Source: a virus. Taken from it: DNA of 40,443 nt. This document shows, piece by piece, positions 13,963 to 26,404 of the stretch. The first letter of the stretch is position 1, and the number at the start of each line of letters is the position of its first letter. The notes beneath the pieces are model-generated. The model was not told the DNA's origin. It saw only the letters and a program-made list of their open reading frames with translations, and made no database searches. The DNA lies in the IMG/VR virus record IMGVR_UViG_3300028909_000041, positions 1 through 40,443 of that record. The stretch is one strand, 5' to 3'. Position numbers and translations under genes: made by a program.

Positions 13963-14193
13963 TCACCCGGCATCGAAGGGCGCATCAAGCCCGGCACGCT
14001 CGCCCGGTTCGTAATCGGTAATAGAAAAATCACAAATAGTACAAAGTCTATACGCAGTAAATTCTGGGTTCGCTGCTACATAATCTCTAGCATCGGAGGA
14101 GCTACGAAAAATATACAACTGCTTATCGGCGCCTGAAAATCGAATTTTAATTGAATCAAAATCTGGTTCGCATAAGGCAAACATTTTAGACAT
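13963..14193 (-). CDS. Small protein with a Cys pair, unknown
   Basis: 76 residues from the ATG at 14193 (AGGAGG 7 nt upstream). It has alternating beta and helix (FALCEPDFDSIKIRFSGADK, then a CTIC pair near residue 51). It overlaps the FtsK-type gene's stop by 8 nt. No family recognised. Confidence 0.6.
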   Translation of the reverse strand: MSKMFALCEPDFDSIKIRFSGADKQLYIFRSSSDARDYVAANPEFTAYRLCTICDFSITDYEPGERAGLDAPFDAG

Positions 14194-15307
14194 TTGGCGC
14201 CCTCCTATATGAATCTCGAATCGAGTCACAATTTATCAGCACATTAGCAATATGATCCATGCTTACAAACGGCCCATGAAATCTCGTTATCTGATCGAAG
14301 CACGGGCTTTCGACGAGCATATCTCCCTTTCCGAGCAACGACTCCGCTCCATACTCGTTAAGTATCGTGCGAGAATCTGCGCCAGTTGGTAGGCGTAGTG
14401 CGATTCTAGTTGTGAAATTTGCTTTAATGTCACCAGTGATGATCTTAACACTCGGTCTTTGCGTAGCACATATAACGTGGACTCCAACTGCTCGGCATAT
14501 TTGAGTGAGCGCCTGTAGTCTGCGGGCGATTCTTTCATAGCCAGCAACTGGTTCCAAGCCAGATTTTGCGAGGCTGTTATCTTCGCCAATAACGTCGGCG
14601 AGCTCGTCGATAATAACGACGTAATACGGGAGCGACGTTGGAGAGATTGCATTGTATTCATGAAGGTTTCGTGCTACCCCTTTCATTTTCTCTGTACGCT
14701 GACGAACGATTGCCATTAAGCGCGTGAATAATGCGTGCACTTTCTCCACATTATCCGCGACCTCCACGACATGTGGGAGGTCTGCGAATAATGTGAGGTC
14801 GAGCTGCTTGGTATCGACGAGCATTAGTTTGAGTTCGTGCTTACTGCGGCTTGCAGCCAGAGCACTAATGATGGCGGAAAGTAATACCGATTTACCTGCT
14901 CCAGTGCTGCCCGCGATAAGAATGTGGGGTGACTCGGTAAGGTCGATATGTGCTGCATTACCTTTTGTGTCAACGCCAAGCATAATCGGCAACTTACAAA
15001 TAGTATCTTGCATAAGAGTATGCAAGCAAACATCATAAGAAACGACATCTCTGCGCGTATTCGGTATCGCAATCGCAATTGAAGCCCCCTTTCGTGTTAT
15101 TAGTACGCTCGGTGCTCCGACGGCGAGTGCGAGATCTTCTTCGGCACGCATAATCTTAGCAATCGGAACAGCAGCACCGAGACGCATGTAATATGTGGTG
15201 ACTATTGGCCCCGCCTCAGCGCTCTCGAACGATGCGTTAATACGCAGCGCAGAGAGCTTGAGTGCGAGTTGTGAGAATACAGTTGCTTGTTCTTGAGTTA
15301 GTGGCAC
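14186..15307 (-). CDS. FtsK/SpoIIIE-type DNA translocase, soluble
   Basis: 373 residues, GTG start with AGGAG 5 nt upstream. The N-terminal ~110 residues match the FtsK alpha domain (GPIVTTYYMRL, ALAVGAPSVLI, IAIAIPNTRRDVV). The motor has Walker A AGSTGAGKSV (132-141), Walker B YVVIIDEL (229-236), the ATQRPS motif (281-286) and LLGKGDML (324-331). Membrane segments and the C-terminal DNA-reading winged helix of chromosomal FtsK are absent. The family pumps double-stranded DNA. In a phage already encoding a terminase motor, its job is unclear: DNA segregation, concatemer handling, or a role linked to the adjacent VWA and J-domain proteins. Confidence 0.9.
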   Translation of the reverse strand: MPLTQEQATVFSQLALKLSALRINASFESAEAGPIVTTYYMRLGAAVPIAKIMRAEEDLALAVGAPSVLITRKGASIAIAIPNTRRDVVSYDVCLHTLMQDTICKLPIMLGVDTKGNAAHIDLTESPHILIAGSTGAGKSVLLSAIISALAASRSKHELKLMLVDTKQLDLTLFADLPHVVEVADNVEKVHALFTRLMAIVRQRTEKMKGVARNLHEYNAISPTSLPYYVVIIDELADVIGEDNSLAKSGLEPVAGYERIARRLQALTQICRAVGVHVICATQRPSVKIITGDIKANFTTRIALRLPTGADSRTILNEYGAESLLGKGDMLVESPCFDQITRFHGPFVSMDHIANVLINCDSIRDSYRRAPNV

Positions 15308-15520: not shown

Positions 15521-16201
15521 TTACCTCCCCTGTAGCTTATCTGCGAAACTCTTGTCCGCAAGCATATATCGAAGCCCCGGGCTAAGATATTTAAACGCTG
15601 TACGAAAATTAGACTTCCCGCGCTCAAAACACAGATATATTCCACCTGTGTCGCGAGCGAGTTTTTCCATAAATTCAGCGGCGCGTTCTTGTTTATATCC
15701 GTCACTGATATATACAGTATCAACTGGAATCTTTTTGCTTTTAATTGAGTCATATTCCAGTTCGCTATAGCTCTGCGGACAACCATCGCTGAATACGATT
15801 GCTCGCGTTAAGCTATTTTTCTTCAGCATCTCTCCGAGCTTCTGCACAAGCGGCGTACCGCCGGTTGCACAAATACTCTTAACCATAATCGCCAAGGCGG
15901 GGAGATTGGTGCAAAGCAGCATCGGAGCAGCATTCATCGGATATATAGCTACAGCGGTTTTATTCTGCTCGCAGGAGCGAAGAAATTCCTCGCAGCCCTC
16001 GTGTGCGTCCTCGCTCTGTGCGCGTCCCATAGAACCAGAATCATCGAATACTATCCCGATTCTATGCTCCATCTGCGCGGGCTTTAGTTCCTCTCGGATT
16101 CCTAGTTCTACTGCAAGCTGTGCTTTTCGTGCGGCCAGCCCAGTTAGAATCCGCCCTTGGCTATTGACTATAGGCTTCTGCCTTACTGCAAGGTCTGACA
16201 T
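15521..16201 (-). CDS. Von Willebrand factor A domain protein
   Basis: 226 residues, GGAGG 7 nt before ATG. A complete metal-ion-dependent adhesion site is visible: D-x-S-x-S at 53-57 (IGIVFDDSGSM), threonine in ATGGTP (T116) and D139 in IVFSDG. The length is a bare VWA domain with a short N-terminal lead. In bacteria, VWA proteins often pair with AAA ATPases as metal-dependent binding subunits; here the neighbour is an FtsK-type motor, with one small gene between. Binding partner unknown. Confidence 0.85.
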   Translation of the reverse strand: MSDLAVRQKPIVNSQGRILTGLAARKAQLAVELGIREELKPAQMEHRIGIVFDDSGSMGRAQSEDAHEGCEEFLRSCEQNKTAVAIYPMNAAPMLLCTNLPALAIMVKSICATGGTPLVQKLGEMLKKNSLTRAIVFSDGCPQSYSELEYDSIKSKKIPVDTVYISDGYKQERAAEFMEKLARDTGGIYLCFERGKSNFRTAFKYLSPGLRYMLADKSFADKLQGR

Positions 16202-18635: not shown

Positions 18636-18950
18636 CTATGGAAAACTCGGATGTGCGATAATATGATGATTACCGCACATCCGAAAGACTGTGTCGAGGG
18701 GTAGGGTGAATTTATCCGTCTCCGTTCCCGTCTCCGTCTCCGTCTCCGTCTCCGTCTCCGTTTCCGTCTCCGTATCCGTCTCCGTATCCGTATCCGTATC
18801 CGTATCCGTTTCCGTATCCGTATCCGTATCCGTTTCCGTTTCCGTCTCCGTCTCCGTTTCCGTCTCCGTATCCGTCTCCGTATCCGTTTCCGTTTCCGTA
18901 TCCGTTTCCGTTTCCGTATCCTCTTCCGTATCCGTCTCCGTTTCCGCCAT
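18636..18950 (-). CDS. Thr-Glu/Thr-Asp dipeptide-repeat protein
   Basis: 104 residues. The ATG at 18950 follows the upstream stop by 3 nt and has GGAGAG about 10 nt upstream. After MAE, about 75 residues alternate Thr with Glu or Asp, encoded by a hexamer repeat ACGGAN. A non-repeat tail DKFTLPLDTVFRMCGNHHIIAHPSFP closes it. The product would be extremely acidic and extended. Two other frames across the repeat are also open, so the coding frame rests on the ribosome site, the operon position and the unique C-terminus. Function unknown. Confidence 0.5.
   Translation of the reverse strand: MAETETDTEEDTETETDTETETDTETDTETETETETETETDTDTDTETDTDTDTDTETDTETETETETETETETGTETDKFTLPLDTVFRMCGNHHIIAHPSFP
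18640..18684 (-). terminator. Hairpin terminator within the end of the repeat gene
   Basis: CGGATGTGCG and CGCACATCCG (18648-18657 with 18674-18683, plus one outer pair) form an 11-bp stem with a 16-nt loop. On the - strand TTTT follows the stem. It overlaps the last codons of the 18636-18950 gene. Confidence 0.65.
18715..18946. repeat. Hexanucleotide tandem repeat (TCCGTN), about 38 units
   Basis: About 228 bp of TCCGTC, TCCGTT and TCCGTA units in irregular order. Nearly all differences fall at the sixth base; one unit has CCCGTC and one has TCCTCT. Units are 6 bp, so unit gain or loss keeps the frame. Confidence 0.95.
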
Positions 18951-18953
18951 TAA

Positions 18954-19253
18954 TTAGGCTCTCCATATTGCCACACTCTTAATCGAAGCTTCAGCAATTG
19001 CTGATACATCAAGAATTTCAATAGCTTGTAGTAATAGTACAGAAGAAACTTCTTCGGGGAACTTGCAGTCTTTTGGTTTTGTCGTGCCAGATTGGGCTAG
19101 TTGCGACAGGGATGCTGCTCCAGACCAGCACCAAAGTCTGCGGGCATTTTTAAGTACCACTTCTTGTCCGTTTCTTGAGTGTAAATTTCCAGCGAATACT
19201 CCCGCTGTGCATGTACGAACAATTACATATTTTCCAGGTTTCTTAGCTGCCAT
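18954..19253 (-). CDS. DUF6948-like phage protein
   Basis: 99 residues, AGGAGAATAAC before ATG. The layout KYVIVRTCTAGVFAGNL, GQEVVLKNARRLWCWSGAASL and LLQAIEILDVS closely follows a small phage family (DUF6948 as recalled): a beta protein with the N-A-R-R-x-W-x-W motif. Function not known in the family. It is first in a string of small genes leading to the repeat protein. Confidence 0.65.
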   Translation of the reverse strand: MAAKKPGKYVIVRTCTAGVFAGNLHSRNGQEVVLKNARRLWCWSGAASLSQLAQSGTTKPKDCKFPEEVSSVLLLQAIEILDVSAIAEASIKSVAIWRA

Positions 19254-22100: not shown

Positions 22101-22336
22101 AAGTCGGTATGTTGTTGATTTGGATAGGGGATATGATGCGAGGGCACCTGGATACTGGTTTGCAGAACTTCAATCACAAGCGCGAGCGGCGCGAGCACTG
22201 TACGATTCGAGTGCGTTACGCGCAAATACGCGTGCCGCGCCGATATTATGGCGTAAGCACGCGTACGGTTATTCGAGATTGTTTGCGGCTGCATAGAGCC
22301 AGATCAGCGCGAGCTGCGCGTGCAGCGCGCCGGTGC

Positions 22337-22495
22337 TCATATATCGCGAACGCTATTGCGCGCGTAACGCTCCGCGCTGCTAGTTAGATACCAGAGTACA
22401 GCGTAATGCGCGAACTGGCGCGGGTTCAAGTACAGTGCGACTCGTGCTTCATGCTGTAATCGTTCGGCGCTCATCCTTGGCTCAATTATGATCAT
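22337..22495 (-). CDS. 52-residue helical protein, unknown
   Basis: The ATG at 22495 follows the stop of the upstream gene, with GGAGG 9 nt before, the same spacing as that gene uses. The product contains MSAERLQHEARVALYL and QFAHYAVLWYL, an amphipathic, Ala/Tyr-rich helix pair. Its stop overlaps ATGA, starting a possible 23-residue ORF (22269-22340) that reads GALHAQLALIWLYAAANN. In the same frame beyond its TAA, coding-like sequence continues. Function unknown. Confidence 0.5.
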   Translation of the reverse strand: MIIIEPRMSAERLQHEARVALYLNPRQFAHYAVLWYLTSSAERYARNSVRDI

Positions 22496-23195: not shown

Positions 23196-23226
23196 TTGAC
23201 AAGCACTCGCTCCTGTGCTATAGCAC
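23196..23226 (+). promoter_or_regulatory. Rightward promoter with palindromic operator over the -10
   Basis: TTGACA (23196-23201), a 17-nt spacer and TATAGC (23219-23224). The -10 lies inside the perfect 12-bp palindrome GTGCTATAGCAC (23215-23226). A protein bound there would block RNA polymerase. It would serve the late arm, which begins at 23513. Confidence 0.6.
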
Positions 23227-23512
23227 GCGCGCCGCTCTCAGTATATACTCTTCAGTATAGATTTAATAGTATAGACTCCCCCCACCCTAAAAAATCTGAA
23301 TTCGAATTCGCTGGCCGGGGACCACCAATATAAATTTTTAAAAAATTTGACTCTAGCACTATAGCACACGCAGCGCGAAGCGCGACGCAAGCGCGGGGCG
23401 GCGCAATGGGGTATTACGCGGTACGAATGGCTGTAATACTCTATTGATATTCTCCCCCTATCTATATATAGTAACCATAGTGCCTGACCTGCGTCGGAGA
23501 GGGGCGACAAGA
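23227..23512 (+). promoter_or_regulatory. Non-coding leader with palindromes and AT tracts
   Basis: There is no gene here. It contains the palindrome GAATTCGAATTC (23298-23309), the palindrome at 23332-23348 (AAATTTTT-A-AAAAATTT), a second operator-like GCACTATAGCAC (23356-23367) and a GC-rich GCGCGAAGCGCGACGC stretch (from about 23373). It may be a replication origin or late-gene control region. Confidence 0.4.
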
Positions 23513-23713
23513 ATGAGCGAGTCTAAAATACTACAGAGTCTTGAAGAATTTAAGAACAAGTATGCTTGGGATAAATCCCTACTGACTGGACATTTCGCGC
23601 CCTCCGCGCAGGTAGCACCGGAAGCGGATTCTAGTATCGAGGATTATTTACGGGAGGCGCAAGCGGCGCAGCAATCGGACGCGTGGGAGCTTGTGCCTCG
23701 GGAGGTGCTGTGA
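23513..23713 (+). CDS. Small protein preceding terminase, unknown
   Basis: 66 residues from the ATG at 23513 (GGGG 8 nt upstream). It is acidic and partly helical (MSESKILQSLEEFKNKY, EDYLREAQAAQQSDAW). The stop overlaps the next start (TGATG). It is first in the late operon, so it may assist packaging, but no family is recognised. Confidence 0.65.
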   Translation: MSESKILQSLEEFKNKYAWDKSLLTGHFAPSAQVAPEADSSIEDYLREAQAAQQSDAWELVPREVL

Positions 23714-24366
23714 TGGGTGTTCATACTCCTGGCCGGCCTTCCGCCCTAAATCCGCATTTGCAAATGACGTACAAGCGGATGATGAAGATCGAGCGGATTG
23801 CGAGACTGACACTCGACCCGAGCGGATTTAGCAACGAGCAGATCGCAAACATGCTCGGGTGCAATAAGCAGACGGTTGTGCTAGTGCGGCAGCTTCCAGC
23901 ATTCCATGCGAAGATCATGGAGATAAAGAGCGGTGTTATCTCTGGGTATGATGCCGCGCTACGCACGAATATAGATAACGCGAGGCAGGAACTTCGGGAT
24001 ATGGTTCCAGTGGCGCTGAATGTTATTAAGAATGCTGCGTTCGGAAAGCTTGGCTCGCAACTCCAGTACAAGGCCGCGCAAGACATACTAGACCGCGAAG
24101 GGAATCTAGCGAAGGTATCTAAAAGCAGTGTGAGTGTTGAAGTAGTTCCGAACATGCAGGTTGATCCACTTGTGGCATCAAATTTAATGTCTCTGCTGAG
24201 TAACGCGCCGCCGATTCAAGAAATTCCCTGCACAAGCACAGCGAACTCCTTTACTCAAAGCGCAGCCGCCGCTGAAATCAAGCAATACGAACTCGGCGAA
24301 ATGACGAACGCGGAAACTCTCGACATACTTCTAGACGGAATCGAGCCCGCCAAGCTCCCGAATTAG
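23713..24366 (+). CDS. terS: Terminase small subunit-like protein
   Basis: 217 residues from the ATG at 23713, GGGAGG 7 nt upstream. A helix-turn-helix lies near residues 38-58 (FSNEQIANMLGCNKQTVVLV). Long helices suited to oligomerisation follow (NIDNARQELRDMVPVALNVI, QYKAAQDILDREGNLAK), then a Ser/Ala-rich tail. This layout and the position just before the large terminase fit a small terminase that selects phage DNA for packaging. The assignment is by fold pattern and synteny. Confidence 0.75.
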   Translation: MGVHTPGRPSALNPHLQMTYKRMMKIERIARLTLDPSGFSNEQIANMLGCNKQTVVLVRQLPAFHAKIMEIKSGVISGYDAALRTNIDNARQELRDMVPVALNVIKNAAFGKLGSQLQYKAAQDILDREGNLAKVSKSSVSVEVVPNMQVDPLVASNLMSLLSNAPPIQEIPCTSTANSFTQSAAAAEIKQYELGEMTNAETLDILLDGIEPAKLPN

Positions 24367-24562
24367 TTAGCTCTGCGGTACACAGAATCTAAATCTTGCT
24401 GAGTGTTCTGGACCCTCACTTAGTAAGTCCCGATACCTGAAGCTGTGTACCGCATCTAACTATAAACTGAGTTTCAATATAAATCTCTTCAGGGTCGGGA
24501 GTGCTTCTCAAAGGGTCCCCAAGCGGAGGGACGAAGTCCCGACGCGCGGAGCAGGATCAATT
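24367..24562 (+). ncRNA. Structured spacer between terminase genes
   Basis: A 196-nt gene-free leader. GCGGTACACAG (24375-24385) pairs with CTGTGTACCGC (24443-24453), an 11-bp closing stem around CTGAGTG/CACTTAG. A second unit pairs GTCGGGA (24494-24500) with TCCCGAC (24537-24543), enclosing GTCCC/GGGAC (24515-24519, 24528-24532). The latter GGGAC can instead pair with GTCCC at 24536-24540 across GAA. TCCCGA also occurs at 24428, so GTCGGGA has two possible partners. A ribosome site AGGA follows 6 nt before the next ATG. It is a candidate cis-acting RNA or packaging element. Confidence 0.55.
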
Positions 24563-26404
24563 ATGAGCTATACCTCAAAAGATCTCCAAGATGTAGCAGC
24601 TCAAAATCTAGAATATGAATACAGCGAGACTGGCGGATTATATATACCGCGTGCTGTAACTTCTAGCTGGCGTGTGCTTCCGCCGGTGCATAATGACCCT
24701 ACGACGCTGCGAATGATTCACCGGCTTAATTCACAAGGCTCGCTATTCTATTTCGCAACACGTGTGCTCGGCAAAACAAGATTCCAGAAGAACCCGAATC
24801 CAGATCAGAACTTACACTTTCAAATGTGCAAGGTCGTAGAAAAAGATGGCCTCAAGGAAGTAATTGAAATTCCTCGCGGGCATTTTAAATCCACAGTGTT
24901 TACAGAATGCTATAGTATGTGGCGCGCGCTTCCTTTAACTTACGAGGATGAACTTTACATGCGTGCTCTTGGCTACGGCGACCGCTGGATAAAGTGGATG
25001 AAGTACGTGCATAATCAGGATATTCGTATCCTGCTTGTATCCGAAGTTATAACGAACGCGTCGAAACTGGGCGTTCGTTTGCAAGGGCATTATCAGAATA
25101 ATGATCTCTTTAAGTATATTTTCCCTGAGATTCTACCTGATGCAAGTTGCACACAGAATAAAGAATCATTCTGTCAGATGCGCTCGAAGGGTTCAAATGC
25201 ACAAGGCGAAGGTACTTTCGACTTCATCGGTGTTGGTGGCGCACTTCAATCTCGGCATTATGATATAGTAATCCAAGACGATTTAGTAGGACGCGAAGCA
25301 TACGAATCTGATGTTACAATGGCGAAAACTATTGAGTATCATAAATATCTAGTAGGCGCGTTCGATGCCGAACAAGACGATGGCGGAAGAGATAATGACG
25401 AACTCGTTGTAGGAAATCGCTGGAGTTATAAAGATCTGAATTCCTATTTGCGAAAAGAAGAAACCTATTTCAATTTCACGACCCATTCAGCCTTAGGCGG
25501 ATGCTGCAATCTACATCCATTCGGTACTCCTATTTTTCCTGAATCCTTTAACTTTGAAAAACTGGCAAGATATAGAAAAAGACTTGGCACGTACATCTTC
25601 TCTTGCCAATATCTTAATACTCCGATTAACCCCGCGGAAGTAAAGTTTAAACTCAAGAGTTTACGACGGTTTGAGTTTGTACGAGATAATTCTTTTACAT
25701 ATCAGGATGTAATTCCATTCGATACTAAGGGCCGCACACGTACACGAACGAAAATAAATATCCGGCATAAGGTATTAGACGGTGACGTAGAAGAAGACAT
25801 TAGCCCACGAAATCTAAAACGCTACATGATAGTTGATCCAAACCATTCAGGAAATGACGGACGGTGCAGACATGCTATCACAGTCACAGGAATCGCAGAA
25901 AATCCCAGACGCGTATATCTGCTTGATGTCTGGGCAAAAGCATGTGGAACTGATGAATTTATCGGAGTTATGCTCGATCTTGCCGTCAATGTTTGGAAAC
26001 TCGACTGTATTTATATGGAGACTATTGCCGCACAGAAGTATCTCAAGTACCACATGGATTACATAATCAAGGAAAAATCCTATAAAGATCCACGATATGC
26101 CGCACTTGAGATTAAGGAATTAAAAACTCCCAAGACCGCGAACGCTAAAAAAATGCGTATTGAGGGACTCGGGCCGATATTCAGCCGCGGAGAGTTCTGG
26201 ATCAACACTGTAGGAATGGAAGAGTTTATCGAGGAATTTGAAGCGTACCCCAGCGGTAAACTTATTGATGTGCTAGACACACTCGGCTACGGCCCACAAG
26301 TATGGGACTTCGATACAAACACAGACGAAGTTGAATTTGAGATTCTTCGCCGCAAGGAACAATACAAACGCACGATCCGAAATTCTTCAATGGGGTTTAA
26401 TTAA
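24563..26404 (+). CDS. terL: Terminase large subunit
   Basis: 613 residues, ATG with AGGA 6 nt upstream. The ATPase half has a Walker A variant IPRGHFKST (103-111) and Walker B DIVIQDD (234-240). The nuclease half starts with D425 in MIVDPNHSG and continues with further acids (about 470-560). An adjacent Arg/Lys-rich loop (GRTRTRTK, 390-397) is unusual. It is the DNA-packaging motor that cuts concatemers and fills the capsid through the portal. Full-length. Confidence 0.92.
   Translation: MSYTSKDLQDVAAQNLEYEYSETGGLYIPRAVTSSWRVLPPVHNDPTTLRMIHRLNSQGSLFYFATRVLGKTRFQKNPNPDQNLHFQMCKVVEKDGLKEVIEIPRGHFKSTVFTECYSMWRALPLTYEDELYMRALGYGDRWIKWMKYVHNQDIRILLVSEVITNASKLGVRLQGHYQNNDLFKYIFPEILPDASCTQNKESFCQMRSKGSNAQGEGTFDFIGVGGALQSRHYDIVIQDDLVGREAYESDVTMAKTIEYHKYLVGAFDAEQDDGGRDNDELVVGNRWSYKDLNSYLRKEETYFNFTTHSALGGCCNLHPFGTPIFPESFNFEKLARYRKRLGTYIFSCQYLNTPINPAEVKFKLKSLRRFEFVRDNSFTYQDVIPFDTKGRTRTRTKINIRHKVLDGDVEEDISPRNLKRYMIVDPNHSGNDGRCRHAITVTGIAENPRRVYLLDVWAKACGTDEFIGVMLDLAVNVWKLDCIYMETIAAQKYLKYHMDYIIKEKSYKDPRYAALEIKELKTPKTANAKKMRIEGLGPIFSRGEFWINTVGMEEFIEEFEAYPSGKLIDVLDTLGYGPQVWDFDTNTDEVEFEILRRKEQYKRTIRNSSMGFN

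Follow-up and report, generated by a model that had tools for sequence, protein, structure and literature searches.

A conserved pseudoknotted element in the TerS–TerL spacer of a viral clade, replaced by an HNH-like reading frame in some relatives

Phage RNAs can be tied to packaging by position, as is the phi29-type packaging RNA (pRNA), or placed ahead of a gene that they control. The leader pseudoknot of gene 32 in T4-type phages is described as a translational operator 67 nt upstream of its own gene (PMC3014915). Here we describe an element of about 155 nt (24364–24518) between the terminase small-subunit (TerS) and large-subunit (TerL) genes of a 40,443-base virus record, the whole of which was analysed and is called the window below. 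It represents a structured RNA class without an Rfam match, found in ten divergent alleles within an operon regarded as purely protein-coding, and its two interlocked pseudoknots form an uncommon fold.

The last base of TerS is 24366 and the first of TerL is 24563, which bears out the 196-nt spacer (24367–24562) that a sequence-only reading had picked out as a possible bistable RNA. The closing stem described there (24375–24385/24443–24453) is present and perfect, reaching 12 bp with the pair 24374/24454, and the nested second stem was located at 24395–24405/24417–24427. Also visible in the window sequence are the proposed alternative partners: GTCGGGA (24494–24500) with TCCCGA at both 24428 and 24537, and GGGAC at 24528 with two GTCCC partners. 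Three parts had been overlooked: a pairing of the nested-stem loop (helix c), a lower stem over the TerS stop codon (helix o), and helix d. The features are as follows.

23444..23474, + strand: candidate packaging-operon promoter, TTGATA-17-TATAGT within motif CCCCTATCTATATATAGTAA
23713..24366, + strand: terminase small subunit, TerS (PHROG 2538, E 2.5e-4; PHROG 7344, E 5.6e-4)
24364..24370, + strand: helix o, 5' strand TAGTTAG, including the TerS stop codon 24364–24366; partner 24456–24462; compensatory change in L008
24374..24385, + strand: helix a, 5' strand; partner 24443–24454; 3 compensatory changes relative to L008
24395..24405, + strand: helix b, 5' strand; partner 24417–24427; 2 compensatory changes relative to L008
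24410..24416, + strand: helix c, 5' strand, in the loop of b; partner 24512–24518; compensatory change relative to L008
24429..24442, + strand: helix d, 5' strand (d2 24429–24433, internal loop TA, d1 24436–24442); compensatory change relative to L008
24487..24499, + strand: helix d, 3' strand (24495–24499 pairs with d2, 24487–24493 with d1)
24500..24511, + strand: linker between d' and c', A-rich beside c' in ten alleles
24512..24518, + strand: helix c, 3' strand, and 3' end of the conserved element
24528..24540, + strand: GGGACGAAGTCCC hairpin behind the element, not conserved, the source of the "alternative partners"
24563..26404, + strand: terminase large subunit, TerL (PHROG 38, E 2.6e-53)

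The helices follow the order a-b-c-b'-d-a'-d'-c', which makes two H-type pseudoknots that interlock, one formed by a and d and the other by b and c; helix a crosses both d and c, and helix b crosses c. The base sets of these four helices are disjoint, so no two of them compete for the same nucleotides. In 6 of 8 alleles c and b' are directly adjacent (0 nt between them), the classic arrangement of an H-type pseudoknot, and the b–c pseudoknot with its abutting helices lies upstream of a start codon. An internal loop or bulge interrupts helix d in each of the seven alleles with both halves annotated, where d1 measures 6–9 bp (only one half was annotated in L121). Over the ten alleles, A occupies 36 of the 60 bases in the 6 nt before c' (background 0.30, P 1.6e-6), and A-richness is expected where a pseudoknot loop crosses a groove. 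Short hairpins, GC-rich and with loops of the CGAAG/CGGAG type, such as the one at window 24528–24540 and those at 300–420 and 1545–1620 of L007, are scattered in intergenic regions and lie behind the RNA in most alleles; they are possibly small mobile palindromes.

We retrieved TerL relatives from viral contigs and counted, within the clade, the records with TerL identity of 74% or more and the full TerS–TerL spacer. Twenty records were counted (the window, L001–L013, L015, L020, L118, L119, L121 and L122); records lacking the spacer (L014, L016–L019 and L147) were left out of the count, and in L123 only the end of an HNH-like ORF is visible. The element is present in 17 of the 20, and the remaining three (L004, L005, L006) carry an HNH-like ORF instead. 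These 17 carriers collapse to eight distinct sequences: the window allele (also L001, L002, L003 and L015), L007 (also L020), L008, L009, L010 (also L011–L013), L118, L119 and L121 (also L122). Two further alleles, L161 and L186, came from a scan of 15 distant loci (TerL 43–55% identical; 12 scanned together, plus L161, L186 and L190). The ten distinct sequences thus comprise the window, seven relatives (TerL 74–90% identical) and two distant phages (43–49%). On the TerL tree the RNA is spread across the clade and the HNH-only state falls in two places. No copy was found outside the TerS–TerL interval in the sequences scanned.

Position relative to the preceding gene is largely maintained. In eight of the ten alleles the base of the element lies on the preceding frame's stop codon or at most 12 nt from it, the exceptions being L161 (about 40 nt) and L186 (about 26 nt). 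In L009 an extra small ORF (1582–1780) separates TerS from the RNA, which starts about 12 nt or less from the stop codon of the ORF. The next gene is TerL or, in some relatives, an HNH or small ORF; L119 and L121 show the order RNA, HNH-like ORF, TerL. Between c' and the start codon that follows lie anywhere from 23 to 92 nt.

Poor stability relative to shuffled sequence, or a lack of covariation in homologous spacers, was to have counted against a structure, and neither was observed. Spacer folding gave z = −2.96, with 1 of 200 shuffles equal or better. Between the window and L008, 36 of 46 helix pairs are unchanged, 8 are changed compensatorily on both sides, 2 are changed on one side and 0 are broken (hypergeometric P 1.7e-7 for joint changes), and each of the helices o, a, b, c and d has at least one compensatory change. 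Each allele's top score for the ordered four-helix architecture was also set against 1000 shuffles of its own spacer that preserved dinucleotide composition (L009 was cut to the region around its element beforehand). None of the 1000 shuffles reached the observed score in any of the ten distinct sequences, with the narrowest margins in L119 (82.0 versus 80.5) and L009 (89.5 versus 86.0). The tests of the first eight alleles are post hoc, because these had been annotated by eye before scoring; L161 and L186, found by the scan, are the prospective tests, and L186 scored 103.5 there against a best of 75.0 in 40 shuffles.

Across 1009 sliding 200-nt stretches of the window, the element site has the top architecture score (91.0, next 85.0). 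The L121 element scores 77, below a value of 79.5 elsewhere in its own locus, and in L010 and L119 the program picked partners for c or d that differ from the hand annotation. The ordered four-helix score was used in place of a loose first scanner, which favoured GC-rich palindromic stretches (e.g., 22213–22448). Taken together, the existence of a structured, pseudoknotted fold, more elaborate than first described, is nearly certain. Several other features of the window were recorded: a GC-rich region with dense imperfect palindromes and high chance-helix scores between divergent gene blocks (22180–22470); an FtsK/SpoIIIE-family ATPase gene on the − strand (14186–15307; PF01580, E 6e-31), unusual for a phage of this size; a weak von Willebrand factor A match, also − strand, under the curated cut-off (15521–16201; PF13768, E 3.4e-5); and a simple hexamer-like repeat open in several frames (18636–18966; TETDTE/SVSVSV/GNGDGN).

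Searches for further copies returned known members. The AAATCTCTTC..TTCTCAAA pattern gave 86 stretches in viral contigs and no new member; among the 79 matches scored in L022–L100, only 3 already-known ones stood out. The TGTGC..CCCCACTCACAA pattern gave 7 stretches, 4 known and 3 new (L172, L174, L176), with no new member among them: L176, at 89.0, exceeded the highest of its 60 shuffles (82.5), but visual inspection showed simple GC-rich hairpins and it was rejected. The TAGTTAGG motif gave 7 stretches, of which 6 were known and L182 was rejected. L154, which did not come from this motif, exceeded its shuffles (75.5 versus 67.5) and was dropped as lying inside an ORF. No match was returned by blastn of the spacer against phages. 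A TerL search of GTDB genomes returned none with A1 and one with A8 (L190), in which the region upstream of TerL is coding and holds no element. Annotated phages with the most similar TerL (TR020, A-4L and MW202554; 21–28% identical) had no junction element beyond shuffle level; the annotation of MW202554.1 (L189:2411–4948) splits TerL into two parts separated by a small gene, which suggests an insertion within TerL. Against Rfam 15 (4227 families), window 24200–24700 had no match at E up to 5, the whole window matched only a tRNA, and seven relatives (L161 and L186 not among them) gave 4 sub-threshold matches, none at the element. No description of an RNA between terminase genes was found in the open-access papers searched.

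The spacer is probably part of a polycistronic packaging mRNA, since a promoter-like pair lies upstream and no terminator-like site was found in 23200–24700. The motif CCCCTATCTATATATAGTAA has one exact match in the window (0.01 expected), and the TTGATA-17-TATAGT pair within it matches 10 of 12 sigma-70 consensus bases, in a scan whose count was close to chance. This sole candidate of its kind lies ~910 nt upstream of the TerS stop codon. The 18-base core of the motif is exact in L004, L005, L007, L008 and L010, has a one-base variant in L119, and was not found in L009, L118, L121, L161 or L186. Transcription would start from the 23444 promoter, and the + strand would be the acting one. Strand support from G.T versus A.C mismatches (8:1 over the hand-drawn helices) was dropped as biased by helix scoring, a symmetric recount giving 11:11; with that count and a fold topology that is symmetric when the strand is reversed, sequence alone proves neither the acting strand nor RNA over single-stranded DNA. 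Stop-codon readthrough into a TerS–TerL fusion was also rejected: across the eight RNA alleles tested, extending the frame past the stop codon leads to another stop after 0 to 19 codons, and the register relative to TerL varies.

An unexpected finding is a replacement between nearly identical phages. L005 and L007 have identical TerL DNA (100%), TerS DNA 99.5% identical and identical TerS proteins, and their flanks agree at 99.66% over 1167 nt before the spacer and 99.9% over 7852 nt after it. At the same TerS–TerL junction, L005 carries an HNH-like ORF (1441–1867) and L007 the RNA (1361–1633). Each swap allele occurs in two records from different samples (L005/L006 for HNH, L007/L020 for RNA), and the window and L004 (TerL protein 98% identical) form a second RNA/HNH pair. 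The L004 and L005 ORFs match the HNH profile PF01844 above cut-off; those of L119 and L121 are HNH-like by similarity alone (34% to L004/L005, 51% to each other). Divergence of the alleles parallels that of their carriers: L004 and L005 share 81.8% identity in the HNH cassette (79.4% in TerL), and the window and L008 share 78.2% in the RNA (79.1% in TerL). Because these divergences are similar, both alleles appear to be as old as the lineages that carry them. RNA alleles are exchanged as well, since the L007 RNA is not alignable by blastn to that of L008 despite TerL DNA 88% identical. The L005/L007 pair is a natural experiment, under which a motor role is excluded or unlikely and expression control or selfish spread becomes testable.

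Several readings of the element can be weighed against these observations. The sequence-only reading proposed a switch between mutually exclusive folds, and the energies lend it something: in the window, {o,a,b} (−37.5 kcal/mol) and {c,d} (−28.0 kcal/mol) are each stable, and energy minimization selects c and d when the full 196 nt are folded but o, a and b when folding is confined to 24362–24520. Each set taken singly is favourable in all eight alleles, which is as compatible with joint formation as with alternation. What speaks against bistability is that the helices have no bases in common, that the geometry allowing pseudoknot helices to coexist is conserved, and that the alternative partners of d' are not. 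In the window d' can also pair with 24537–24542, within the unconserved hairpin; in the seven other alleles its best alternative partner in the 3' flank scores 0–18 in no common register, against 20–37 for d–d'. Two mutually exclusive conserved pairings were thus not found, the conserved pseudoknot geometry favours joint formation of the helices, and we consider a bistable switch highly improbable. Equally hard to credit is a DNA site, whether the pac/cos signal also suggested in the sequence-only reading or another terminase or replication recognition site. Its position at the terminase genes speaks for it, as do HNH proteins reported as parts of phage packaging machines (PMC5304195). A pac/cos site should be common to phages with the same terminase, and yet the identical terminase proteins of L005 and L007 come with unrelated spacers; pseudoknotted covariation is, moreover, difficult to explain with duplex DNA. 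Least probable of all is a packaging RNA that serves the motor in trans, in the manner of phi29 pRNA, despite a compact pseudoknotted fold encoded between motor genes: neither DNA search nor architecture scan found the element in the pieces searched of the L005 record (47,795 bases, possibly incomplete), which has the TerL and TerS proteins of L007, and the motor genes include one for TerS. Given its absence from phages whose terminase is unchanged, the element appears to be neither a packaging site nor an obligate packaging RNA.

The main rival is a mobile or selfish RNA with an intron-like life style at a recombination-prone site, spread by recombination in the flanking terminase genes and associated or competing with an HNH homing-type endonuclease. 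The presence/absence swap between near-identical phages, the HNH-like ORFs at the same junction (alone in L004–L006, behind the RNA in L119 and L121) and the exchange of RNA alleles all point this way. Against it, no empty site occurs among the 20 records with a complete spacer, no intron family matches at E up to 5, the element was found solely in the TerS–TerL interval in what was scanned, and RNA-only alleles are structurally perfect with no HNH neighbour. On balance we regard selfish spread as unlikely, if the most serious of the alternatives. A related and still less probable reading is that RNA and HNH cassette form a long-lived two-allele system held as a balanced polymorphism, in which the RNA would spread, compete or immunize against the homing nuclease, or cooperate with it where both occur.

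The reading we tentatively put first, at somewhat less than even confidence, is that of a novel mRNA element that acts in cis, from its place behind TerS, to tune the gene downstream, with control of large-subunit expression as the predicted leading case. Within the polycistronic packaging mRNA, the RNA of 24364–24518 would adopt the fold of two interlocked H-type pseudoknots. Because the base of the element is set on the TerS stop codon, a ribosome terminating TerS would have to open the lower helix, and the remaining fold would then stand between that ribosome and the next start codon, be it of TerL or of an HNH or small ORF. Acting in cis, it may limit or time read-on, re-initiation or mRNA decay in the stretch from TerS to the following gene, which could set the TerS:TerL ratio. 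A base at or within 12 nt of a stop codon in most alleles, with a start codon always downstream, suits an intercistronic control element touched by the terminating ribosome. The varying distance from c' to the start codon argues against simple covering of the ribosome-binding site, and the L005/L007 swap, in which the same terminase does without the element, indicates that any such control is not essential.

The element can be compared with several known systems. It shares with HDV-like and other self-cleaving ribozymes the nested double-pseudoknot style; its helix order differs, with no P3 between c and b', it has no Rfam match, and few unpaired bases are conserved. Group I introns with HNH endonucleases resemble it in pseudoknotted RNA, HNH neighbour and presence/absence in near-identical genomes, but the element matches no group I catalytic core at E up to 5, its topology lacks P8, and it lies between genes and interrupts none, with no empty site seen. 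Like phi29 pRNA, it is a phage RNA positionally linked to packaging; its motor, however, is of the TerS–TerL type, and a phage with identical TerL lacks it. The gene 32 pseudoknot is a single small one with an A+U-rich run over the ribosome-binding site (PMC3014915), whereas the element has two pseudoknots, interlocked and placed after a stop codon, and no comparable run was established for it. The gene 32 pseudoknot is the nearest described analogue: both are H-type pseudoknots in phage mRNA before a start codon, with coaxial helices and variation between relatives (PMC3014915).
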